DNA from: Solimonas terrae
Lineage (GTDB): Bacteria; Pseudomonadota; Gammaproteobacteria; Nevskiales; Nevskiaceae
Length of the DNA: 64,000 bases
Reading direction: 5' to 3'
NCBI RefSeq assembly: GCF_011067135.1
Contig: NZ_JAAMOW010000001.1
Location: 682,001 to 746,000, forward strand
Shown: positions 49,347 to 63,025 of the stretch, in pieces
Position numbering within the stretch: position 1 is the first letter of the stretch
Layout: each line of letters begins with the position of its first letter
Program-made: the position numbers and the translations under genes
Notes under the pieces: model-generated
Databases searched by the model: none
What the model saw: only the letters and a program-made list of their open reading frames with translations
What the model was told of the DNA's origin: nothing

Positions 49347-51893
49347 TCACTGCCAGACGTAGCTCAGTTCCATGCCGATGGTCCGCGGCTCGCCCCAGAA
49401 CACGGCGCGATCGGTTTGCGGCAGGGTCGGGATGGCTTCCGTAATGTAGTCCTTGTCGAGCAGGTTGCGCGCAAAGGCAGCCACTTCAAGCTCGCCGTGC
49501 CCGAGCGTGATGCCGCTGACGGCAAGGCGCGTGTTGACCAAGCCGTAGGCCGGCAGATACGAAAGATCGGAACGACCCGGCAGGCCGCCGCCGTCGCGCT
49601 CGCCCATGTAGCTGTAATTGGTCGAACCGCGAAGCTGCCCCCAGCGGCCCCGAAAGAACGTGTAGTCGGCCGCGAGCACGCCGGAATGGCGGGGTGCCGA
49701 CGGAAACGGGTATTGATCGGCAACATTGGCACCAGTGGCATCAATGACTTTCAGCACCTTGGCATCGAGGTAGGAGTAGTCGCCCGAAAGGTTCAGCCAC
49801 GATGTCACAGCCCATGCGAGCTCGAGTTCGACCCCCTGTATCCGGGCGTGGCCGGCGTTGGTGGCCTTGGTGTCGCCGAGCGTGCCCGGAATCAGGAAGG
49901 TGATCTGCATGTCCTTGAAGTCGGTGTAGAACACATCGGCGTTGATGCGGAAGCGCCGATCGAACCAGTCGCTCTTGATGCCGACTTCGGTCGAAGCCAC
50001 GTACTCCGGCGCGAACCCCTCCTCGAAGCCGAAGCCGTAGTCGGTACCGTCCGACGCCGGGCCCGACGCCGCCGAAATCTGCGGATCGCGCAGATTGAAG
50101 CCGCCGCTGCGATAGCCTTCGACATACTTGGCGTAGAGGTGGACATCCGGCCGCAGATCGAACGCGCTGATGAACGAGAGCGAGTCATTCGAATAGCTGC
50201 GCTTGCCGCGCACATGGTCGAAAGCGTCCGCACTGTCGGCGAGAAAGGCGGTGCCCAGACCGTTGACGTTGACTTCGAGATAGTTGTCCTGCGTGTAGGT
50301 CTTGATCGCTTCGCGCGAATCCTGTGAATGCCGATAGCCGAGCGTCAGATGCAGGCGTTCATCGAACCACGACGGCGTCCAGGTGCCCTGGCCGAACAGC
50401 GCAGCAGCGTGATTGTCTGCGCCGTAATCGCGCATGTTGAACGTCACGATGCGTGGACCGGCCAGCGAGATCAGAGGGTTCACCAGACCCGGTATCAGCT
50501 GATAGAGGGCCGCGGCCTGCGCCGGCAACAACGCGGAGCTCGCCTGATGGCTGAACGGCGTACGGTCGGTCGCACGTTCCGAGAACAGGAAACCGCCGAG
50601 TATGTATTCGAACTGCTCGTCGAACAGCTTGCCCTTGAACTGCAGCTCATGCGACCACTGGTGCTGCTTGAGTTCTGGAATCACCAGGGGCGTCGGCCCG
50701 CCGTACGCGACCGTCGCCGCAGGACCATCGTAGTAGTTGCTGTCGAGCCGGAAGTCGAGCGAGCCGGCACCGCCACCGAGATCCGCGTAGTAGTTGTCGT
50801 CGAGACTGCGGTAGGCGCCGATGTACTTGAGCTCGTAGCCCTCGAACGGCATGGTCAGCGTCAGCGCGTGCCCGTCGATGCGCGTCGTCGACTGCTCCAT
50901 CGGCATGCCGGTCGCAAGATGATCGAGTCGGTGCGGCGAATACACGCTGTTGAGCGCCGCATATTCCTTGATCAGGTTCGCACTGCCCTTGTCGGAGTCC
51001 GGCGGCAGCACGTCCTGCGGCATCTGCGCGTAGGCATCGACGCGCGTCAAGTCGAAGCCGTAGTCGGCACGCAGCCAGTCGTACGGTGTCCAGCTCGCGT
51101 CGAAGCGCAGGCCGAGCGCCTTGCGGTCGCCGAAATCGCCGCCCGGTCCGGTGTTCTCGACATAGCCGTCCTGGCGTTTGGCGAGCACGCCGAGCTTGAC
51201 GGCTGCGTCCGCCGACAGCGGCGCGTTGATGGTGGCCTTGCCACTGGCGAGCGCCCGCTCGCCGCCGCTGCTTGTGAACTCGACCCAGAAGCCGCTCGGA
51301 TCGGGCCGCTTGGTGATGAGGTTGATCGCGCCGCCGGTGGTATTGCGCCCGTACAAGGTTCCCTGTGGTCCTTTCAGCACTTCTATCCGTTCGAGATCGG
51401 CCACCTCGAGCGCAAGCCCGGACGAACGCGCGATGTAGACGCCATCGAGGTAGACACCGACCGCCGGGTCCTGCGTCACCTGCGCATCGGCCAGACCGAC
51501 GCCGCGAATGAACAGGCGCAGCGTCGAATTGCTGGTCGGAAACGGCTCGATGGAAATGCCCGGCACATTGCCCTGCAGCTTCTCGACGCTGTCGATGCCG
51601 CGTTCCTGCAGCATTTTCTCGTTGAACGCCGTCATCGAAATCGGCGTGTTCTGGATCGATTCCGACTTCTTCTGCGCGGTGACGATGATTTCCTCGATCT
51701 GTGGCGCCGGCGTGCGGTCGCCGCTCGAGCCCACCACCGGCTTCGGCGGCTCGGCCGGCAACGCAATGGTCTTCAACGATTCTGCGTCGGGTGCAGCGTC
51801 GGACGCCGTCTGCGTCGCACTTTGGGCGCCCGCATGGGTCACCACGAACACGGCACCGAGCAGGCATCCTCGCACCTGAGCCTTGATCGCCAC
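49347..51893 (-). CDS. TonB-dependent outer-membrane receptor
   Basis: An 848-residue receptor. After a signal peptide and a Pro-rich linker, a TonB box-like segment (EEIIVTAQKKSESIQNTPIS) leads into the plug (LQGNVPGISIE, RLFIRGVG, GVYLDGVYIARSSG, VLKGPQGTLYGRNTTGGAIN). The 22-strand barrel follows and ends with an aromatic-rich strand (IGMELSYVWQ). The plug and barrel pattern is of the large proteobacterial family that imports diverse hydrophobic or carbohydrate substrates rather than classic siderophores; substrate unknown. It is divergent from a TetR regulator. Confidence 0.93.
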   Translation of the reverse strand: MAIKAQVRGCLLGAVFVVTHAGAQSATQTASDAAPDAESLKTIALPAEPPKPVVGSSGDRTPAPQIEEIIVTAQKKSESIQNTPISMTAFNEKMLQERGIDSVEKLQGNVPGISIEPFPTSNSTLRLFIRGVGLADAQVTQDPAVGVYLDGVYIARSSGLALEVADLERIEVLKGPQGTLYGRNTTGGAINLITKRPDPSGFWVEFTSSGGERALASGKATINAPLSADAAVKLGVLAKRQDGYVENTGPGGDFGDRKALGLRFDASWTPYDWLRADYGFDLTRVDAYAQMPQDVLPPDSDKGSANLIKEYAALNSVYSPHRLDHLATGMPMEQSTTRIDGHALTLTMPFEGYELKYIGAYRSLDDNYYADLGGGAGSLDFRLDSNYYDGPAATVAYGGPTPLVIPELKQHQWSHELQFKGKLFDEQFEYILGGFLFSERATDRTPFSHQASSALLPAQAAALYQLIPGLVNPLISLAGPRIVTFNMRDYGADNHAAALFGQGTWTPSWFDERLHLTLGYRHSQDSREAIKTYTQDNYLEVNVNGLGTAFLADSADAFDHVRGKRSYSNDSLSFISAFDLRPDVHLYAKYVEGYRSGGFNLRDPQISAASGPASDGTDYGFGFEEGFAPEYVASTEVGIKSDWFDRRFRINADVFYTDFKDMQITFLIPGTLGDTKATNAGHARIQGVELELAWAVTSWLNLSGDYSYLDAKVLKVIDATGANVADQYPFPSAPRHSGVLAADYTFFRGRWGQLRGSTNYSYMGERDGGGLPGRSDLSYLPAYGLVNTRLAVSGITLGHGELEVAAFARNLLDKDYITEAIPTLPQTDRAVFWGEPRTIGMELSYVWQ

Positions 51894-52130: not shown

Positions 52131-52742
52131 ATGCCAACCCGATCCAAAAAGCGCAAACCACCCGCCAAGCGCGCGTACATGAGCCGCGATCTTCGCCGTC
52201 AGACGCTGCTGGAAGTCGCCGCCGGCATCGTCGAGCGCGAGGGCTGGCCGGCACTGACGATGAGCGCACTGGCCGATCAGGGCGGCACCAGCCGGCAGCT
52301 GGTCTACCAGCACTTTCCCAGCCTCGAAAAACTGCTGGCGGATACGTCCTGGCACATCTTCACCGACACGATGCTCGGCACCCAGGCGTCGATCGCCGCG
52401 CATCCGACGAGTCTGGCCGAAGCTGTCACCGCCGCCGAAGCCGTGACGCTCGATCTGCCGCCCGGCCGCGGCGATGCGCTCTGGCAGCTGATTGCCGGCA
52501 CCGCGTCGACGACCGAGGAACTGGATCAGATGCGGCGCGGCATGCGCGAAGTGATCACCGGCATCTGGATGCCGCTGGTGCGCAAGGAACTCGGCCTGAA
52601 GGAAGCCGATGCCAAGGCCTACGCGTGGATGATGGTGATCGCGTTCTGGGGCATGCGGCAACTGGTGCGCGACGGCGACGTCACGCGAGCACGCGGCGTC
52701 AAACTGTTCGGCCAGATGGTCGAGCGGCTCGGCCGGCCGTGA
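52131..52742 (+). CDS. TetR-family regulator of the accessory region
   Basis: A 203-residue TetR-type protein. A basic N-terminus (TRSKKRKPPAKR) precedes the helix-turn-helix (LTMSALADQGGTSRQLVYQH then FPSLEKLLAD). The C-terminal domain is all-helical. ATG 52131 is preferred over an upstream TTG at 52119. The upstream region has direct repeats of TGTCA (52098-52102 and 52106-52110). It is the only regulator in the accessory region, so it is the best candidate to bind the 15-bp palindromes at 54251 and 61061. That assignment is inference. Confidence 0.88.
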   Translation: MPTRSKKRKPPAKRAYMSRDLRRQTLLEVAAGIVEREGWPALTMSALADQGGTSRQLVYQHFPSLEKLLADTSWHIFTDTMLGTQASIAAHPTSLAEAVTAAEAVTLDLPPGRGDALWQLIAGTASTTEELDQMRRGMREVITGIWMPLVRKELGLKEADAKAYAWMMVIAFWGMRQLVRDGDVTRARGVKLFGQMVERLGRP

Positions 52743-56654: not shown

Positions 56655-57665
56655 TCACTCGACCAGGTGTGCGAGGCAGCCGGTGCGCGTCATCAGCGGC
56701 GCCAGCGACGCACGCACCTGTGGATCGAGTTGTACCCAGCGCGCACGAATCTCCGCGTAGCACTTGGCCTGGTACGGGAACGCGGCCTGCGCGAATGTCG
56801 CGCCGCGGATGTTCACGCTGACATCGCTCGCGCCTTGCGCCAGTGCCGCGGCGTTGGCGGCGAGGAACGGCAGGTATTCGGCACCGATCATGTCCAGCAG
56901 GGCTTCGCGCAGGCCGGCGGATTTCTCCGGCTGCCATTCGCCGTCGATGCCGGAGCCGTCGTCGAGCGTGATCGTCCAGCTCTCGACCACCGGCGCGCGC
57001 TCGCGGCAGATGCGCTGCGGCTGCGGATCGATCGTCAGCTGCGCGAGCTGGCCGTACAGCGCGAAGTCGGCCAGCGACGGGCGGCTGCCGAACAGGTAGC
57101 GCGCGCCGCCGACCTGCGGCGCGAGGAGGTCGAGCAGTCGCCGGTAGCCGGCTTCGATCAGCGGCGCGTTGTCCGGCGTACAGCCGACCATTGCCATGCG
57201 GCTGCGCTGACGATCGTGAAAGAACCTTGCGGCGCTGTCGTGCGCGGCGCCGTGCAGCTTCGGCATCGCATCGCGGACGATCCAGTGCGCTGCCCAGTCG
57301 GCGGTGGCATCGTCGGTCCAGCGATGGTGGAACATCATCTTGCTGACCCACTCGTCGGCCAAGTCCTCGATCAGATGGCAGACGAAGGCATCGGCGGCAT
57401 CGGGCGGCACGATCGAGCGCTGGTCCGGGTGGCGCGCTTCGAGCAGATGCGCGATCGGCGTGCTGTCGACTTGCCATTCGCCGCTGTCCGGCATGCGCAG
57501 GATCGGCACGAGCCTGGGCCGCACATGCGCGACTTCCGGCACGGTGTCGGCGGTGCCGACGATCCACACATGCGGCAGTCGCCGGTAGCGCAGGATCGCG
57601 CGCAGCTTGCGCGAGAACGGCGAAGGGCTGCAGCCCACGAGACGATAAACGCCCTCGGTCGTCAT
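56655..57665 (-). CDS. Large GST-fold protein C (paralogue 3 of 3)
   Basis: A 336-residue protein, much longer than normal GSTs (200-240). The N-terminal thioredoxin-like domain has GCSPSPFSRKLRAILRYR and VDSTPIAHLLEARHP. The helical domain has EDLADEWVSKMM and RYLFGSRPSLADFALYGQLA. A C-terminal extension (about 230-336) ends with a stretch seen in the two paralogues (AQAAFPYQAKCYAEIRA then LDPQVRASL). It overlaps paralogue B by 4 bp and is last in the operon. The catalytic residue may be the Ser before Arg-Lys; substrate unknown. Confidence 0.85.
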   Translation of the reverse strand: MTTEGVYRLVGCSPSPFSRKLRAILRYRRLPHVWIVGTADTVPEVAHVRPRLVPILRMPDSGEWQVDSTPIAHLLEARHPDQRSIVPPDAADAFVCHLIEDLADEWVSKMMFHHRWTDDATADWAAHWIVRDAMPKLHGAAHDSAARFFHDRQRSRMAMVGCTPDNAPLIEAGYRRLLDLLAPQVGGARYLFGSRPSLADFALYGQLAQLTIDPQPQRICRERAPVVESWTITLDDGSGIDGEWQPEKSAGLREALLDMIGAEYLPFLAANAAALAQGASDVSVNIRGATFAQAAFPYQAKCYAEIRARWVQLDPQVRASLAPLMTRTGCLAHLVE

Positions 57666-58792
57666 GCGACAGGCTCCCAGGGTGTGCCGGAAAAATAGAA
57701 GCGCAGGCGCTGCCGCAGGCTCGGCGGCGCGACGGCGCGGGCTTCGGCCTGCACGATCGGCTCGAACACCGATGCCGCGCCGGCCTGCTGCAGATGACGG
57801 ACGATGTCGTGCGGCGCCAGACGCGCATCGACGCGCGCCCGCTGCTCCGCATCGAGCGCGGCATACGCCAGCTGCAGCGTGCGCAGACAGCGCGCGCGAT
57901 ATCGGATCGTCGGCAGCCGCCGGTAGCGGATGCCACCATAGTGGCCGTCGAAATGTGTCGTGCCGGTTTTCGCGGCGGTGGCGTTGTCGTGCAGGTACGG
58001 CAGATAGGCGGCACCGATGTCGGAAAAAATCTCATCCCAGGCCGCGTTCGAGAAATCGTCGAGCGGCGCGTCCGCCCAGTCTTCGCTGCCGCTGTTCCAG
58101 ACGCGCGTGACCCAGGCCCAGACACGTGGCGCCTGTTCGGCCATCAGCGCTGCCGGCCGCGGGTCCTGCGCGTAGTGACGGAACATCGGCCCGAACCACG
58201 CGATGTCGACCAGGCTCGGTCGCTCGCCGAGCAGATAGCGACGGTTCGCGAGCAGGGTGTCCAGCCAGCGCAGCGCCTGCGGATAGAGCGCCGCGATCGC
58301 ATCGAAGTTGTCGCGCGTCACGCCGTCACCACGCAGATAGATGCGTTGCTGGCGACGGCGGAAGTACAGGCCCATCGCCCAGGCCGGCTGCAGACTGTCG
58401 CGCGACAGTTCGGCACCGAGCCGCGCGCCGAGATAGCGCGCATTGTCCGGCCACGCCCAGCGCCAGAACATCGCCGGCCGCCATTGCCATTCGTCGCAAT
58501 AGTCCTCGATCAGCGTCGACAGGAATGCGCGATACGGATCGCGGGGAATCAGCGCGCGCTGCCGATGTTCGGCGTCGAGCCAGCGCAGCAACGGGGTGGT
58601 GTCGACGAGCCACAGGCCGTCATCGCGCCTCACTGCCGGCACTTTCATCCAGCCGGTGTTCGGCAGCACCTCGTCAAGCAGGATCGCGGGCGTGATCGTC
58701 CGCCGCTCGTAGGCAATGCGCTTGGCGCGCAGGGCACCTTCGAGCTTGCCGCTGAAATACGAGACGTCCGAAAGGTAGACGCAATACGACAT
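57662..58792 (-). CDS. Large GST-fold protein B (paralogue 2 of 3)
   Basis: A 376-residue GST-fold protein. The N-terminal domain is LSDVSYFSGKLEGALRAKRI then VDTTPLLRWLDAEHR. The C-terminal domain has IEDYCDEWQWRPAMFWRW and RYLLGERPSLVDIAWFGPMF. The extension (about 260-376) contains GIRYRRLPTIRYRARCL and YAALDAEQRARVDARL, shared with the paralogues, and a unique tail of about 50 residues. In the thioredoxin domain the usual CxxC is absent; a Ser-Gly-Lys replaces it. It overlaps C and lies 6 bp after A. Confidence 0.85.
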   Translation of the reverse strand: MSYCVYLSDVSYFSGKLEGALRAKRIAYERRTITPAILLDEVLPNTGWMKVPAVRRDDGLWLVDTTPLLRWLDAEHRQRALIPRDPYRAFLSTLIEDYCDEWQWRPAMFWRWAWPDNARYLGARLGAELSRDSLQPAWAMGLYFRRRQQRIYLRGDGVTRDNFDAIAALYPQALRWLDTLLANRRYLLGERPSLVDIAWFGPMFRHYAQDPRPAALMAEQAPRVWAWVTRVWNSGSEDWADAPLDDFSNAAWDEIFSDIGAAYLPYLHDNATAAKTGTTHFDGHYGGIRYRRLPTIRYRARCLRTLQLAYAALDAEQRARVDARLAPHDIVRHLQQAGAASVFEPIVQAEARAVAPPSLRQRLRFYFSGTPWEPVA

Positions 58793-58798
58793 CGCGAT

Positions 58799-59902
58799 TC
58801 AGCGTTCGACCATCACATGCAGACCGACGCGTTGCAGGCGCGTGCCGATATCGAGCTGCAGCGCCGAGGCGGCGTCCTGCCGTTGCAGCCACGCATCGAC
58901 CGTCGCGCGCGCTGCGGCATCGAGTTGCGCGTAGTCGTCCTGGATGCGCTGCAGCATCCACAGCGTGTACGGCATCGCATCGCGGCGGAAGCGATATCGC
59001 CCCATCGGGAATTCGACCGCGCCAAGCGCGCGCGGCAGACGTCGGCGCTGCGGCGGCGGCGTCGCCAGCGCCTTGTGCAGCTCGTCGCGAATGCCGGCCA
59101 GCATCGGCCAGAACTCCTTGAACAGCGCGTCGAACAGCGGCTGCAGCGTCGCCGGAATGTCGTCGTTGGCGAGGAATTCACCGCTGCCCGGCTGCGGCGC
59201 ATTCATTCTGTCGATCCAGGCTTTCAGATGCGGGCGCGGATCGACCAGCGTGCGCTTCGGCATCGGATCGCGGCCGAGATGGCCGTACAGCGGCCCGAGC
59301 AGCGCGAAGTCGGCAATCGACGGCTTGCTGCCGAGCAGGAACGGCAGCGTCGCGAAGTGCTGCTCCAGCGCATCGAGCATGTCTTCGGTCCAGCGTTCCA
59401 TCGCGCCGAACTGGGTCGGCACCACGCCAACCGAAGGCAGATAGCTGCGCAGGCGGGCCGCGACGTAGGCGACGATGCGCTTCTTCGCGAAACGCGGAAA
59501 ACCCGGCAACAGCGCGTTGCCGGCGTCGGCCTCGAACAGGGCGTAGTTCTCCGGAAAGCTCCAGCGATAGTGCATCGCCGTCGGTATCCACCATTCGTCC
59601 GCCCACATTTCCAGCAGCTCGGCGACGATGCGCTGGCGCGGCGTCGCCGGCAGCACCGGCGCGTCCGGGAAGCGCTGTTCGAGCACGTCGACGATATGCG
59701 TACTGTCCTGCAGCCACTCGCCTTCCGGCGTCACGACCACCGGCATCACCGTCGCGCCGGTCTTCGCCGGGATCTTGCGCATCAGCGTGATCGCATCGAC
59801 CTCGTGATCGACGAACGGCACGTTCTTGTAGCGCAGGTACGCGCGCGTCTTGCCGCTGTAGTACGACAGATGCCAGCCGTGCAACACATACGACGTGCTC
59901 AC
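58799..59902 (-). CDS. Large GST-fold protein A (paralogue 1 of 3)
   Basis: A 367-residue GST-fold protein. The start is GTG at 59902, overlapping the membrane-protein stop (GTGA); the frame stays open to 60379 only by chance. The thioredoxin domain has GWHLSYYSGKTRAYLRYKNV and LQDSTHIVDVLEQRFPDAPV, and the helical domain has EMWADEWWIPTAMHYRW and FLLGSKPSIADFALLGPLYG. The extension carries GRYRFRRDAMPYTLWML and YAQLDAAARATVDAWL, the segment that defines the three paralogues. Likely a glutathione-dependent enzyme; substrate unknown. Confidence 0.85.
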   Translation of the reverse strand: MSTSYVLHGWHLSYYSGKTRAYLRYKNVPFVDHEVDAITLMRKIPAKTGATVMPVVVTPEGEWLQDSTHIVDVLEQRFPDAPVLPATPRQRIVAELLEMWADEWWIPTAMHYRWSFPENYALFEADAGNALLPGFPRFAKKRIVAYVAARLRSYLPSVGVVPTQFGAMERWTEDMLDALEQHFATLPFLLGSKPSIADFALLGPLYGHLGRDPMPKRTLVDPRPHLKAWIDRMNAPQPGSGEFLANDDIPATLQPLFDALFKEFWPMLAGIRDELHKALATPPPQRRRLPRALGAVEFPMGRYRFRRDAMPYTLWMLQRIQDDYAQLDAAARATVDAWLQRQDAASALQLDIGTRLQRVGLHVMVER

Positions 59903-60321
59903 AGGCGGCTCCGCAGAAACAGGAAGACCAGCGCCGTGCCGCCGAACAACAGGATTTCCGCGATCAGCAGCGGCGCCGCGACATCGCGCAGCACCGGATC
60001 GCCGATCAGGAACGCGACCCGCATCAGGACAAACAGCCCGAGCGTGATCGCCGCCGAGCGCAGGTAGCGCCGCTCGCTGGCGCCGGCCAGGGCATTGCCG
60101 ACGACCAATGCGATGCCGATCATCAGGCAGCCGATGAACGCGATTGCATACCAGGTGTAGCTGTCGAACGGCAGCCGCATCGGCGCGCCGCAGAGATGCG
60201 CAAGCGCCAGCGCGAGAAACGCCACGCCGGCAAGGCCGAGCGAGAGGCGATACAGCTGCAGCGCGGCGCGGGCGACACGGCGGGCCGGCGATCGCCGCCG
60301 CAGGGTTTCGGTCTCGCTCAT
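59899..60321 (-). CDS. Four-helix membrane protein of unknown function
   Basis: A 140-residue inner-membrane protein with four helices (roughly residues 20-45, 55-77, 87-105 and 114-135, for example [19 protein letters not shown] and [17 protein letters not shown]). It has basic residues at both ends. No catalytic motif is visible; the outline resembles small DUF4345-type proteins but I cannot assign it. It overlaps the GST genes on both sides by 4 bp, so it is a committed member of the operon. Confidence 0.75.
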
Positions 60322-61022
60322 CGCTGCACCATGGTCCGCGCGGCAGTGGCGAAATCCTCGTCCTTCCTGGCGTCATCACCAGGGTTCGACATGTCGATCG
60401 GCACGGTGATGCCCTTCTGGCACGCCGGCCGCTCCTTCATCGCGTCGAGCCAGCGGCGCAGGTTCGGCAGGCCTTCGACCGCAACGCCCGACCATTTGTA
60501 GGTCCGCACCCAGCACCAGTTGGCGATGTCGGCGATCGAATATTCGTCGCCGGCCAGCCATTCGGCTTCGGCCAGCCGCGTGTCGAGCACCTCGAACAGG
60601 CGCCGGCACTCGTTCTGGTAGCGGGCAATGGCGGTCGGAATCTTCTCGGGCAGATAGCGGAAGAACACGTTGGCCTGCCCCATCATCGGTCCGACGCCAC
60701 CCATCTGGAACATCAGCCACTGGATCGCCAGCAGGCGCGCGGCCGGGTCCTTCGGCAGCAGGCGGCCGGTCTTCTCGGCGAGATACAGCAGGATCGCGCC
60801 GGACTCGAACAGCACCAGTGCCCCGTTCGGGCCGCCCGGATCGACGATCACCGGAATCCGCCCGTTGGGATTGAGCTTGAGGAACTCCGGCTGCTTCTGC
60901 TCGTTGGCGAGCAGGTTCACCAGTCGCGCCTCGTACGGCAGACCGAGCTCCTCCAGCATCACCGACACCTTCCAGCCGTTCGGTGTCGGCGCCGTATACA
61001 GTTGGATCGCGCGCTCCGCCAT
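60318..61022 (-). CDS. Nu-class-like glutathione S-transferase (YfcG/YghU type)
   Basis: A 234-residue GST that heads the five-gene operon. The N-terminal pattern [20 protein letters not shown], then [12 protein letters not shown] and [14 protein letters not shown], is that of YfcG/YghU, which reduce disulfides and hydroperoxides with glutathione. The helical domain has [12 protein letters not shown] and [28 protein letters not shown] ribosome site lies before the ATG at 61022. Palindromic operator 2 lies 39 bp upstream. Confidence 0.93.
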
Positions 61023-61124: not shown

Positions 61125-62378
61125 ATGACGCCACCACTGACCCTGCCCGCCGCCGGCCTGCCGCCGAGTTTCAGGTCGCGCATCGCCGAACGCATCGCCG
61201 CGTCGCGCGATCCGCTCGCGCGGCTGCGTGCCGGACACGAGCTGGAGTTGTACTACGAGGCCGGCGATCCGCATTCGCAACTGTGCGCCGCCCTCGCCCG
61301 CAAGCTGCTGCCGCGCCTGGACCGACCGCTGCGCATCCGGGTCGTGGCGGCGCCGGACGTGGCGACCTATCCGGAGGCGGAACGCCAGCGCTCGTTCGCC
61401 GCCAGCGACGCGGCGCGCATCGCGCCCTGCCACGGCCTGCGTACGCCGATCGCCATTCCCGCCGGACAACAGGCCGCGTTCGCGGCGCGCCTGTGCGCGG
61501 CGGCCGATGCAGAGCACTTCCTGCAGATCGAAAGCGAGTGCCTGACCGCGCTTGCCGGTGGCCAGTCCCTGAGTGCCGATGCCGCATCGCTCGCCGGTGC
61601 CGAGCGCATGCTCGCCGCCAATGCCGTGCGGCGTTTCAAGCTCGGCCACTATCTGCCGGCGATGTGGCAGTACCGTGGCGAATGGTTCTGGGCGCTGGAT
61701 CGGCTCGATCTGCTGCAGGCGCGGCTGGACGCCGACCATGCGCTGCAGGGCCAGGCGCCGCTGACGAACTTCGATCCGGGCAGGCTGCCGGTGTCGCCCG
61801 CCGCGGCCGACACGCCGCTGGAGTTCTGGTACAGCTTCCGCAGCCCGTATTCATACCTCGCTGCCGTCGAACTGCTGCGGCGACGCGCACGAGGCGCCCG
61901 CGCGAGCCTGCAGGTCCGCCCCGTGCTGCCGATGGTGATGCGCGGCCTGCCGGTGCCGCGCATCAAGCGGTTGTACATCGTCCGCGACGTCAAGCGCTGC
62001 GCCGATACCCTCGGCATCGCCTTCGGTCGCATCCACGACCCGGTCGGCGACGGCGTGCTGCGCCTGCTGACCGTCCATCCGCACGACGCCGACGCCGATA
62101 CCCAGCTGCGCTATTGCGCGATCGCCGGCCAGACGGTCTGGGCCGAAGGCCTCGACGCGACACGCGACGACGTGCTGCGCAGCGTGATCGAGCGCTGCGG
62201 TCTGGACTGGCCGCAGGCACGGGAAAAACTGGCGGCCGGCGTCGACACGCGGGCAGCGGAAACCCATCGCGAAGCGCTGTTCGCCGCAGGGCTCTGGGGC
62301 GTACCGAGTTTCCGGCTCGGCGGCTTCACGACCTGGGGCCGCGACCGGCTGTGGATGCTCGACGCGCTCGATCCTTAG
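61125..62378 (+). CDS. Tandem kappa-GST/DsbA-like protein (HCCA-isomerase family)
   Basis: A 417-residue protein with two copies of a DsbA-type thioredoxin fold. The C-terminal copy (about 225-417) has LEFWYSFRSPYSYLAAVELL and GLWGVPSFRLGGFTTWGRDR, as in 2-hydroxychromene-2-carboxylate isomerase and kappa GST, with the Ser of the active site. The N-terminal copy is degenerate: LELYYEAGDPHSQLCAALAR matches the same beginning without the catalytic Ser, and FKLGHYLPAMWQYRGEWFWALDRL matches the same ending. It is divergent from the GST operon over operator 2. Confidence 0.85.
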   Translation: MTPPLTLPAAGLPPSFRSRIAERIAASRDPLARLRAGHELELYYEAGDPHSQLCAALARKLLPRLDRPLRIRVVAAPDVATYPEAERQRSFAASDAARIAPCHGLRTPIAIPAGQQAAFAARLCAAADAEHFLQIESECLTALAGGQSLSADAASLAGAERMLAANAVRRFKLGHYLPAMWQYRGEWFWALDRLDLLQARLDADHALQGQAPLTNFDPGRLPVSPAAADTPLEFWYSFRSPYSYLAAVELLRRRARGARASLQVRPVLPMVMRGLPVPRIKRLYIVRDVKRCADTLGIAFGRIHDPVGDGVLRLLTVHPHDADADTQLRYCAIAGQTVWAEGLDATRDDVLRSVIERCGLDWPQAREKLAAGVDTRAAETHREALFAAGLWGVPSFRLGGFTTWGRDRLWMLDALDP

Positions 62379-62680: not shown

Positions 62681-63025
62681 ATGCGCGGCATGAGCGCGAT
62701 CAGCCCGTGGGTCCTGATGATCTTCGCCATCGGCTCGGAGATTGCGGGCACCTCGTTCCTCAAGCTCGCGAACGGCTTCGAGCGGCCCTGGGCCTGGCTC
62801 GGCGTCGGCGGCGGCTTCGGCATCGCGCTGTTCCTGCTGTCGGTGCTGCTCGAGAAGATGGACGTCAGCGTGGTCTACGCGATCTGGAGCGGCGCCGCGA
62901 TCGCCCTGATCGCGGTGGTCGGCGTCGTGGTGTTTCACGAACAGATGAGCTGGACCCGCGCGGCGGGGCTGCTGGCAACCGTCATCGGCATCGTCCTGCT
63001 GCAGCTCAGCACCCGCACCGCCTGA
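62681..63025 (+). CDS. Small multidrug resistance (SMR) transporter
   Basis: A 114-residue four-helix proton-driven exporter. Helix 1 has the essential Glu in FAIGSEIAGTSFLKLANGFE, the equivalent of Glu14 in EmrE. Helix 3 has VYAIWSGAAIALIAVVGVVV and helix 4 LLATVIGIVLLQLS. ATG 62690 is an alternative start. Paired SMR subunits are common but only one gene is here. Substrate is likely a quaternary or lipophilic cation; it may export products or toxins from the neighbouring pathway. Confidence 0.92.
   Translation: MRGMSAISPWVLMIFAIGSEIAGTSFLKLANGFERPWAWLGVGGGFGIALFLLSVLLEKMDVSVVYAIWSGAAIALIAVVGVVVFHEQMSWTRAAGLLATVIGIVLLQLSTRTA

Follow-up and report, generated by a model that had tools for sequence, protein, structure and literature searches.

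Within a stretch of 64,000 nucleotides from Solimonas terrae (contig NZ_JAAMOW010000001.1), hereafter the window, our analysis centred on a five-gene operon in which a Nu-class glutathione S-transferase (GST) and a small membrane protein are joined to three long GST paralogues, designated G1, G2 and G3. In our reading the operon supplies the cytosolic, glutathione-using half of a module that breaks down lipophilic electrophiles, similar in kind to the IsoI/IsoJ pair, and we would put the chance that this is correct at about even. The reading is built on gene content, homology, a conserved pattern at the putative glutathione site, conserved gene order and non-random genomic company, all of which were observed directly. 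The protein superfamilies are known; the combination and the class of long GSTs are new as far as the open literature shows, and a search of that literature, outside of which most subscription journals lie, gave no description of either the cluster or the class.

The original prediction had placed five genes at 56655-61022 on the minus strand, and all five were found there (Table 1) with the junctions it had described, namely 4-bp overlaps between the Nu-class GST and the membrane protein, between the membrane protein and G1, and between G2 and G3, and a 6-bp gap between G1 and G2. Its count of four GST-fold proteins agreed with Pfam, which assigned four of the five operon genes to the GST superfamily, and a Kyte-Doolittle scan of the 140-residue membrane protein gave four hydrophobic peaks, in line with the four helices claimed. 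The Nu-class assignment stood as well: the best PDB match was 4eci (E 3.1e-85) and the match to YfcG (3gx0, E 6.4e-54) agreed with it. Membership of the YfcG equivalog itself was not indicated (NCBIfam PRK13972, 194.5 bits against a cut-off of 332).

Table 1 Genes of the operon, of the conserved block around it and of a second cluster (window positions unless a locus is named)
Feature	Coordinates	Strand	Evidence
Nu-class (Ure2pB/YfcG-like) GST, 234 aa	60318..61022	-	Pfam GST_N 1.1e-16
Membrane protein, 140 aa, four predicted helices, sporadic component	59899..60321	-	hydropathy peaks
G1, long StyI/IsoI-like GST, 367 aa, GTG start	58799..59902	-	Pfam GST_N_3/GST_C_2
G2, long GST paralogue, 376 aa	57662..58792	-	Pfam; homology to G1
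G3, long GST paralogue, 336 aa	56655..57665	-	Pfam; homology to G1
Tandem DsbA/2-hydroxychromene-2-carboxylate isomerase-like (GST-kappa-like) protein, 417 aa, divergent from operon	61125..62378	+	Pfam DSBA 3.1e-15, residues 232-412
DUF1302 protein, 725 aa	54304..56481	+	Pfam 2.4e-130
DUF1329 (LolA-like) protein, about 465 aa	52789..54195	-	Pfam 4.6e-127
TetR-type regulator (start possibly 52119)	52179..52742	+	Pfam TetR_N 5e-8
Second cluster of own genome	L036:17905-19002, L037:2139-10792		HMM labels

The three long GSTs had been proposed to be related to one another, and profile comparison with hhalign extended this relationship over nearly their full length. The G1 and G2 profiles were homologous across 334 columns (E 1.1e-60) and those of G1 and G3 across 328 columns (E 2.2e-50), and the paralogy includes the C-terminal part. 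Each family maintains its own set of invariant positions, consisting of a Ser where helix 1 begins, a Pro ahead of strand 3 and an Asp followed by Ser or Thr: S13, P54 and D66 in G1 (23 aligned sequences), S11, P52 and D64 in G2 (11 sequences), and S15, P54 and D67-S68 in G3 (10 sequences). We take these positions to be the glutathione site. Louvain clustering merged G1, G2 and G3 into one group, and the families were told apart by a tree that splits the three, each occurring in several bacterial families; a small fourth group of four loci, G4, has a poorly supported placement. One G1 homologue is interrupted by an in-frame TAG (223 + 138 aa; L055:14250-15360, genome G040; L013), and three more long-GST matches carry one in-frame TAG each.

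AlphaFold gave a confident model of G1 (pLDDT 92.7), the nearest folds being StyI and 4kf9. The styrene-oxide GST StyI (9qd3) ranked first both by Foldseek (E 6e-8) and by VIA (Z 19.1, rmsd 2.7 over 227 residues, spanning residues 3-238), 4kf9 tied with it as a neighbour (VIA Z 18.5) and the following rows had Z 16.3 or lower; LigF, LigE, SspA, FzlA and chains of the mitochondrial SAM complex were also among the structural neighbours. The modelled core of G1 is therefore StyI-like, yet this is a weak test of class since the GST fold is shared. To this core an added C-terminal domain is attached (about residues 245-367), which reached a pLDDT of 92.1 when predicted alone. Foldseek returned no PDB match at E<=0.001 for the isolated domain (40 matches, best E 2.3), which does not prove a new fold. 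With respect to size, the lengths of 367, 376 and 336 residues were confirmed, but GSTs of unusual length are not without precedent, as structures already exist for uncharacterised GSTs of 329 residues (4kf9, Ralstonia) and 310 residues (3ic8, Pseudomonas). The VIA alignments of both reach the last residue of G1, 367 (Z 18.5 and 15.1), so the length of G1 alone is not new; 4kf9 and 3ic8 differ from G1 in sharing only 22% identity, and neither was retrieved by the C-terminal domain searched alone.

The isoprene and styrene route provides an instructive comparison. There IsoI/StyI opens the epoxide with glutathione, the resulting conjugate is dehydrogenated by IsoH, and deglutathionylation is the role proposed for the Ure2p-like IsoJ/StyJ (PMC8552685, PMC10057887). 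The operon resembles the StyI/StyH/StyJ and IsoI/IsoH/IsoJ sets of Gordonia, Rhodococcus and Variovorax in its StyI-like GST fold and in having a second GST of the Ure2p/Nu type (60318-61022), a likeness seen at the level of class; SDR and acyl-CoA-synthetase genes recur near some relatives. It differs in encoding three long GSTs, extended by a C-terminal domain, in place of one enzyme of ~240 residues, in its tandem isomerase-like protein, and in its company of sulfatase, DUF1302 and DUF1329 genes. Both G1 and G2 have IsoI as their best NCBIfam model, though the scores of 39.3 and 20.6 bits are far below the cut-off of 300, and no IsoI match was listed for G3. Because of these scores we see the operon as similar to the route in outline without being a member of it, and isoprene or styrene degradation as such was rejected on the same scores and because no monooxygenase was recognised by eye among the neighbourhood genes viewed. 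The lignin beta-etherase system combines LigE/LigF with a Nu-class or LigG glutathione lyase. The operon would likewise have several GSTs of different classes act one after another, and G1 has both LigF and LigE among its structural neighbours; unlike that system, it has other gene company and no recognised Lig gene order, and beta-etherase membership was rejected on NCBIfam scores of 32.8 (G1) and 18.1 bits (G3) against 440.

The conserved block extends past these five genes to the tandem DsbA protein and the DUF1302, DUF1329 and TetR genes. The tandem DsbA protein and the DUF1302/DUF1329 pair had been missed by the original prediction, as had the recurring company of sulfatase, formylglycine-generating enzyme (FGE), DUF3604 and dehalogenase genes in relatives, which serves as the best functional hint. 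The tandem DsbA protein scored 56.9 bits against PF01323 (cut-off 25.6), and its C-terminal half matched 2-hydroxychromene-2-carboxylate (HCCA) isomerase (PDB 2imd, 6.5e-8). At the site of the CXXC of disulfide oxidoreductases it carries S240-P241-Y242, invariant in nine of nine relatives, and it thus shares with HCCA isomerase and GST kappa a DSBA fold in which Ser replaces CXXC. The N-terminal half retains a similar diverged motif (Asp48/Ser51; nine aligned relatives) and appears from its sequence to be a second, diverged copy. This tandem architecture sets the protein apart from HCCA isomerase and GST kappa, and no adjoining naphthalene-pathway gene was recognised. The DUF1302 protein presumably has a role at the outer membrane. 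Directly past the TetR gene lies a TonB-dependent receptor (window 49347-51851), possibly a part of substrate uptake, and a small multidrug resistance (SMR) transporter adjoins the block (window 62681-63025).

A G1 scan of genome contigs gave 19 related loci, 18 with G1 at 49-75% identity and the nineteenth at 39% and partial. Near relatives were defined as the eight loci L017-L024, in which G1 is 66-75% identical and which come from Solimonas, Stagnimonas, Sinimarinibacterium and two metagenome-assembled genomes (MAGs), one named Nevskiaceae. Genes were called with a purpose-built codon-usage caller, leaving starts and small genes approximate, and labelled by hidden Markov models (HMMs); several of these stretches terminate ahead of genes counted as missing. 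G2 was present in seven of the eight, G3 in six, the divergent tandem DsbA gene in seven and the Nu-class GST in four. DUF1302 occurred in all eight (in L017 as a fragment where the contig stops), DUF1329 in seven (the L017 stretch stops short of it) and TetR in four (three stretches stop short of it and L019 lacks it). The G1-G2(-G3) order is thus shared by Solimonas, Stagnimonas and Sinimarinibacterium and did not arise by a local accident, and the concern that the arrangement might be found only here fell away. The membrane protein behaved differently. Outside its own genome, the only tblastn matches to it in the loci compared came from L023 (=L012) and L024 (=L011), and the protein's single Pfam match, DUF7937, was sub-threshold. 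Its presence in two of the eight near relatives, against seven for G2, seven for the tandem DsbA gene and eight for DUF1302, gives no support to the role at the membrane that had been suggested, and a membrane-bound complex was rejected on the same count. The suggestion of a dedicated multi-step glutathione process fared better, as the glutathione-site pattern of each family, the Nu-class GST and the tandem HCCA-isomerase-like protein recur together in related genera.

The long GSTs have a sparse but wide distribution. A G1-like protein was found at E<=1e-15 in 31 of the 61 genomes searched as relatives, own genome included; the G1 profile matched 16 of 369 sampled Gammaproteobacteria, own genome again included (in 14 of which the match was a long-GST frame or an end piece), and in a sample of 398 Pseudomonadota it matched 20. 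A lone long GST of 31% identity was present on one of 72,556 plasmid records, the 410-kb plasmid of Pseudomonas mandelii JR-1 (L136:9980-11113), among unrelated neighbour genes; this one case is uninformative as to plasmid carriage. An annotated CBASS oligonucleotide cyclase lies ~7 kb away.

To characterise the company of the long GSTs, neighbouring genes were identified by Pfam on cluster representatives. The recurring families were sulfatases, FGE, alkyl sulfatase, a metallo-beta-lactamase-fold (MBL) hydrolase (best NCBIfam model RNase Z, below cut-off), SDR, AMP-binding enzyme, DUF3604, HupE/UreJ-like, PPIase and DUF1254/DUF1214 proteins. Counted up to 8 kb away from a long GST in 78 loci, window included, the DsbA-like group (some single-domain) occurred in 27 loci, SDR in 25 (a common group, with none in the window operon), sulfatase in 19, MBL in 18, a broad NuGST-like group in 16, DUF1302 in 15, acyl-CoA synthetase and an alcohol-dehydrogenase-like group recognised by eye in 13 each, DUF3604 in 12, HupE in 11, FGE and DUF1329 in 10 each and PPIase in 8. 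SDR, alcohol dehydrogenase and synthetase weigh little because they are large superfamilies. Six marker families (DsbA, sulfatase, MBL, FGE, DUF3604 and NuGST) were then compared with 40 arbitrary 20-kb stretches of long-GST genomes, whose positions were hand-picked and not random. At least one marker was found in 12 of 40 loci not used for the models (11 of 30 genomes, some of which supply several loci) and in none of the 40 controls (Fisher 9e-5); singly, DsbA was present in 6 of these independent loci, FGE, sulfatase and MBL in 5 each, NuGST in 3 and DUF3604 in 1. Comparison of the 58 whole-genome loci L038-L095 with the 40 controls gave no clear enrichment of acyl-CoA synthetase (2/58 against 1/40), DUF1302 (5/58 against 1/40) or DUF1329 (2/58 against 0/40), and other counts from these loci are not relied on because the models were partly built from L038-L055.

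At the level of whole genomes, 14 long-GST genomes were set against the 355 others of the 369 Gammaproteobacteria. G070 and G220 were left out of the former, their matching frames being only 252 and 254 aa, while G287 was retained on a 120-aa piece; tandem DsbA was counted only at full length, which left out G131, G209, G260 and G320 (matches to the C-terminal half, four of the 16). Haloalkane dehalogenase (NF002043) occurred in 10 of 14 long-GST genomes against 11 of 355 others (8 of 11 against 11 of 261 by genus), DUF3604 in 6 of 14 against 17 of 355 and full-length tandem DsbA in 7 of 14 against 5 of 355; omission of G287 gave 9, 5 and 6 of 13, respectively. The dehalogenase was also present in 10 of the 12 genomes with a full-length tandem DsbA protein. 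A further 38 genomes yielded it in 14 of 19 with a long GST (one below the family cut-off) and in none of 19 without, a check that weighs little because the controls were poorly matched (nine genomes of 1.3-2.9 Mb, eight from one family).

Physical linkage was seen in a few lineages. In L066 and L067, from small low-GC genomes, and in L084, long GST genes have the dehalogenase as a neighbour, with Nu GST, MBL, DsbA-like or FGE genes near. Relative to the NF002043 cut-off of 265 bits, the enzymes of L066 and L084 scored 309.7 and 457, and those of G234 (L067) and G077 (L141) were likewise above it. At L141:7485-13614 dehalogenase, tandem DsbA and sulfatase frames follow one another with 4-bp overlaps each, and a divergent sulfatase frame is preceded by ~35 residues resembling the start of G1, which may be the remnant of a broken long GST; Pfam detects the sulfatase alone. 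These four arrangements indicate that, in some lineages at least, there is genetic linkage between enzymes that remove sulfate, enzymes that remove halide and enzymes that use glutathione. At L066:3749-10670 and L084:6900-11300, DUF1330, haloalkane dehalogenase and DsbA-like genes are packed beside the long GSTs, the former stretch also holding Nu GSTs, and nitronate-monooxygenase-like genes were recognised by eye near both.

The genome of the window contains a second cluster (C11:764-777k), ~21-34 kb along the same contig, with a fourth long GST and sulfatase, SDR, DUF3604, PPIase and MBL genes. In L022-L024 (Stagnimonas and the Nevskiaceae MAG) the DUF3604, SDR and fourth GST genes stand close beside the operon. 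The own genome also has five Sulfatase family matches (perhaps not all sulfatases), two FGE family matches and two matches to the alkyl-sulfatase dimerisation domain, including an FGE-sulfatase pair at C17:261.8-264.4k (L137). This pair adjoins an SDR-like gene and a meta-cleavage-type set with hydratase, dehydrogenase and aldolase recognised by eye (L137:9254-18363), whose hydrolase scored 157 bits against the HsaD model.

The reactions that we infer for the module, their order and its substrate would be as follows. On a bulky substrate, the three long GSTs would conjugate one electrophilic centre after another (epoxide, halide or activated double bond) with glutathione, their number and larger bodies pointing to a larger substrate or to several such centres. 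Oxidation of the conjugate would fall to SDR-type dehydrogenases, whose genes lie elsewhere in the own genome and next to the long GSTs in relatives. The tandem HCCA-isomerase-like protein would catalyse a glutathione-dependent isomerisation, and removal of the glutathione would be the task of the Nu/Ure2pB-class GST, with DUF1302 and DUF1329 handling the oily substrate at the outer membrane. Since sulfatases (some with their maturation enzyme) accompany the long GSTs in many relatives and a dehalogenase in few, many lineages probably have a sulfate ester as their natural substrate, and some a halogenated one. In one paper GST, DUF1302 and DUF1329 are distributed over two separate aromatic-degradation clusters, and a DUF1302/DUF1329 pair adjoins a phenol-hydroxylase cluster (PMC7012976); the latter placement fits a catabolic setting and names no substrate.

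Several observations weigh against this catabolic reading. The Nu-class GST is absent from its operon position in four of the eight near relatives, and the own genome has its sulfatase, DUF3604 and MBL genes of the set about 27-34 kb from the operon and not within it. No NF002043 dehalogenase was found in the window's own genome at E<=1e-60, and long GST and dehalogenase are neighbours in only 3 (G234, G340 and G663) of the 24 genomes that hold both, 10 from the Gammaproteobacteria sample and 14 from the further 38 genomes. The genome-level tests ignore kinship, and a common lifestyle could yield the same counts. The marker comparison, like that of loci L038-L095, used score thresholds chosen after the foreground scores were known, and L063 and L065 owe their positive status to DsbA alone, with scores of 114 and 117 where the threshold was 100; without both, 10 of 40 loci remain (p 5e-4). 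None of the six markers was found in 28 of the 40 independent loci, which indicates that many long GSTs, chiefly those of the outer G1 and G3 branches, act otherwise or stand alone. Among the neighbourhood genes no epoxide-forming oxygenase was recognised, the unlabelled genes having been viewed by eye in part of the loci with no dedicated search.

That same marker-free majority favours a general detoxification or stress cluster, in which broad GSTs would conjugate reactive aldehydes, epoxides and hydroperoxides outside of any dedicated pathway, and bacterial GSTs are often detoxifying. We nevertheless consider this unlikely: G1, G2 and G3 are three old paralogue families, each with its own invariant residues, gene order is fixed across genera, and sulfatases and other hydrolases are repeated company. 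A steroid or isoprenoid module, in which DUF1302, DUF1329 and TetR mark steroid or lipid uptake, the GSTs remove a side-chain or ring electrophile and the sulfatases act on steroid sulfates, is favoured by the known occurrence of DUF1302/DUF1329 pairs in steroid and hydrocarbon clusters. The TetR protein has a weak match to KstR (17.6 bits), and the FGE-sulfatase pair at C17:261.8-264.4k lies near a meta-cleavage-type hydrolase and a protein resembling, by eye, an FAD ketosteroid dehydrogenase. This explanation too we judge improbable, as the HsaD model was matched only below threshold (best 157 of 400 bits), no steroid-ring gene was recognised around the operon and an open literature search for DUF1302, DUF1329 and steroid together gave nothing.

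Redox support for sulfatase maturation, with the GSTs and the DsbA-like protein serving FGE or sulfatase export, would be consistent with the FGE and sulfatase genes (10 and 19 of 78 loci) and with the PPIase (8) and HupE-type membrane proteins (11) nearby. The DsbA-like protein, however, carries Ser-Pro-Tyr and not CXXC, this explanation leaves the links to dehalogenase and DUF1302/DUF1329 unexplained, and no sulfatase lies near the window operon, so we regard it as highly improbable. Equally remote in our estimation are non-catalytic scaffolds or regulators of GST fold, such as SspA, FzlA or metaxin. SspA, FzlA and the SAM-complex chains are structural neighbours of G1, yet the glutathione-site residues are invariant within each family, and non-enzymatic relatives need not keep them.

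Within the catabolic reading, one specific candidate is an undescribed, widespread pathway acting on sulfate-ester lipids that carry halogens, chiefly the chlorosulfolipids made by chrysophytes and marine algae; this we would call a long shot. Chlorosulfolipids are freshwater chrysophyte products that are now also reported from coastal water of the Eastern Pacific (PMC13413282), and the open literature searched held nothing on point for their bacterial degradation. In such a pathway sulfatases would strip the sulfate, dehalogenase or long GSTs would displace halides and Nu GSTs would recycle glutathione; in dehalogenase-free lineages such as that of the window, the three long GSTs would dehalogenate alone, and the candidate is weakened because the own genome lacks an NF002043 dehalogenase. 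If the catabolic reading is true, these bacteria would possess a glutathione-dependent catabolic route with its own class of long GSTs, the genes described here would be candidates for the breakdown of sulfated, perhaps chlorinated, algal lipids by aquatic bacteria, and DUF3604, DUF1330 and the tandem DsbA protein would gain a testable context.

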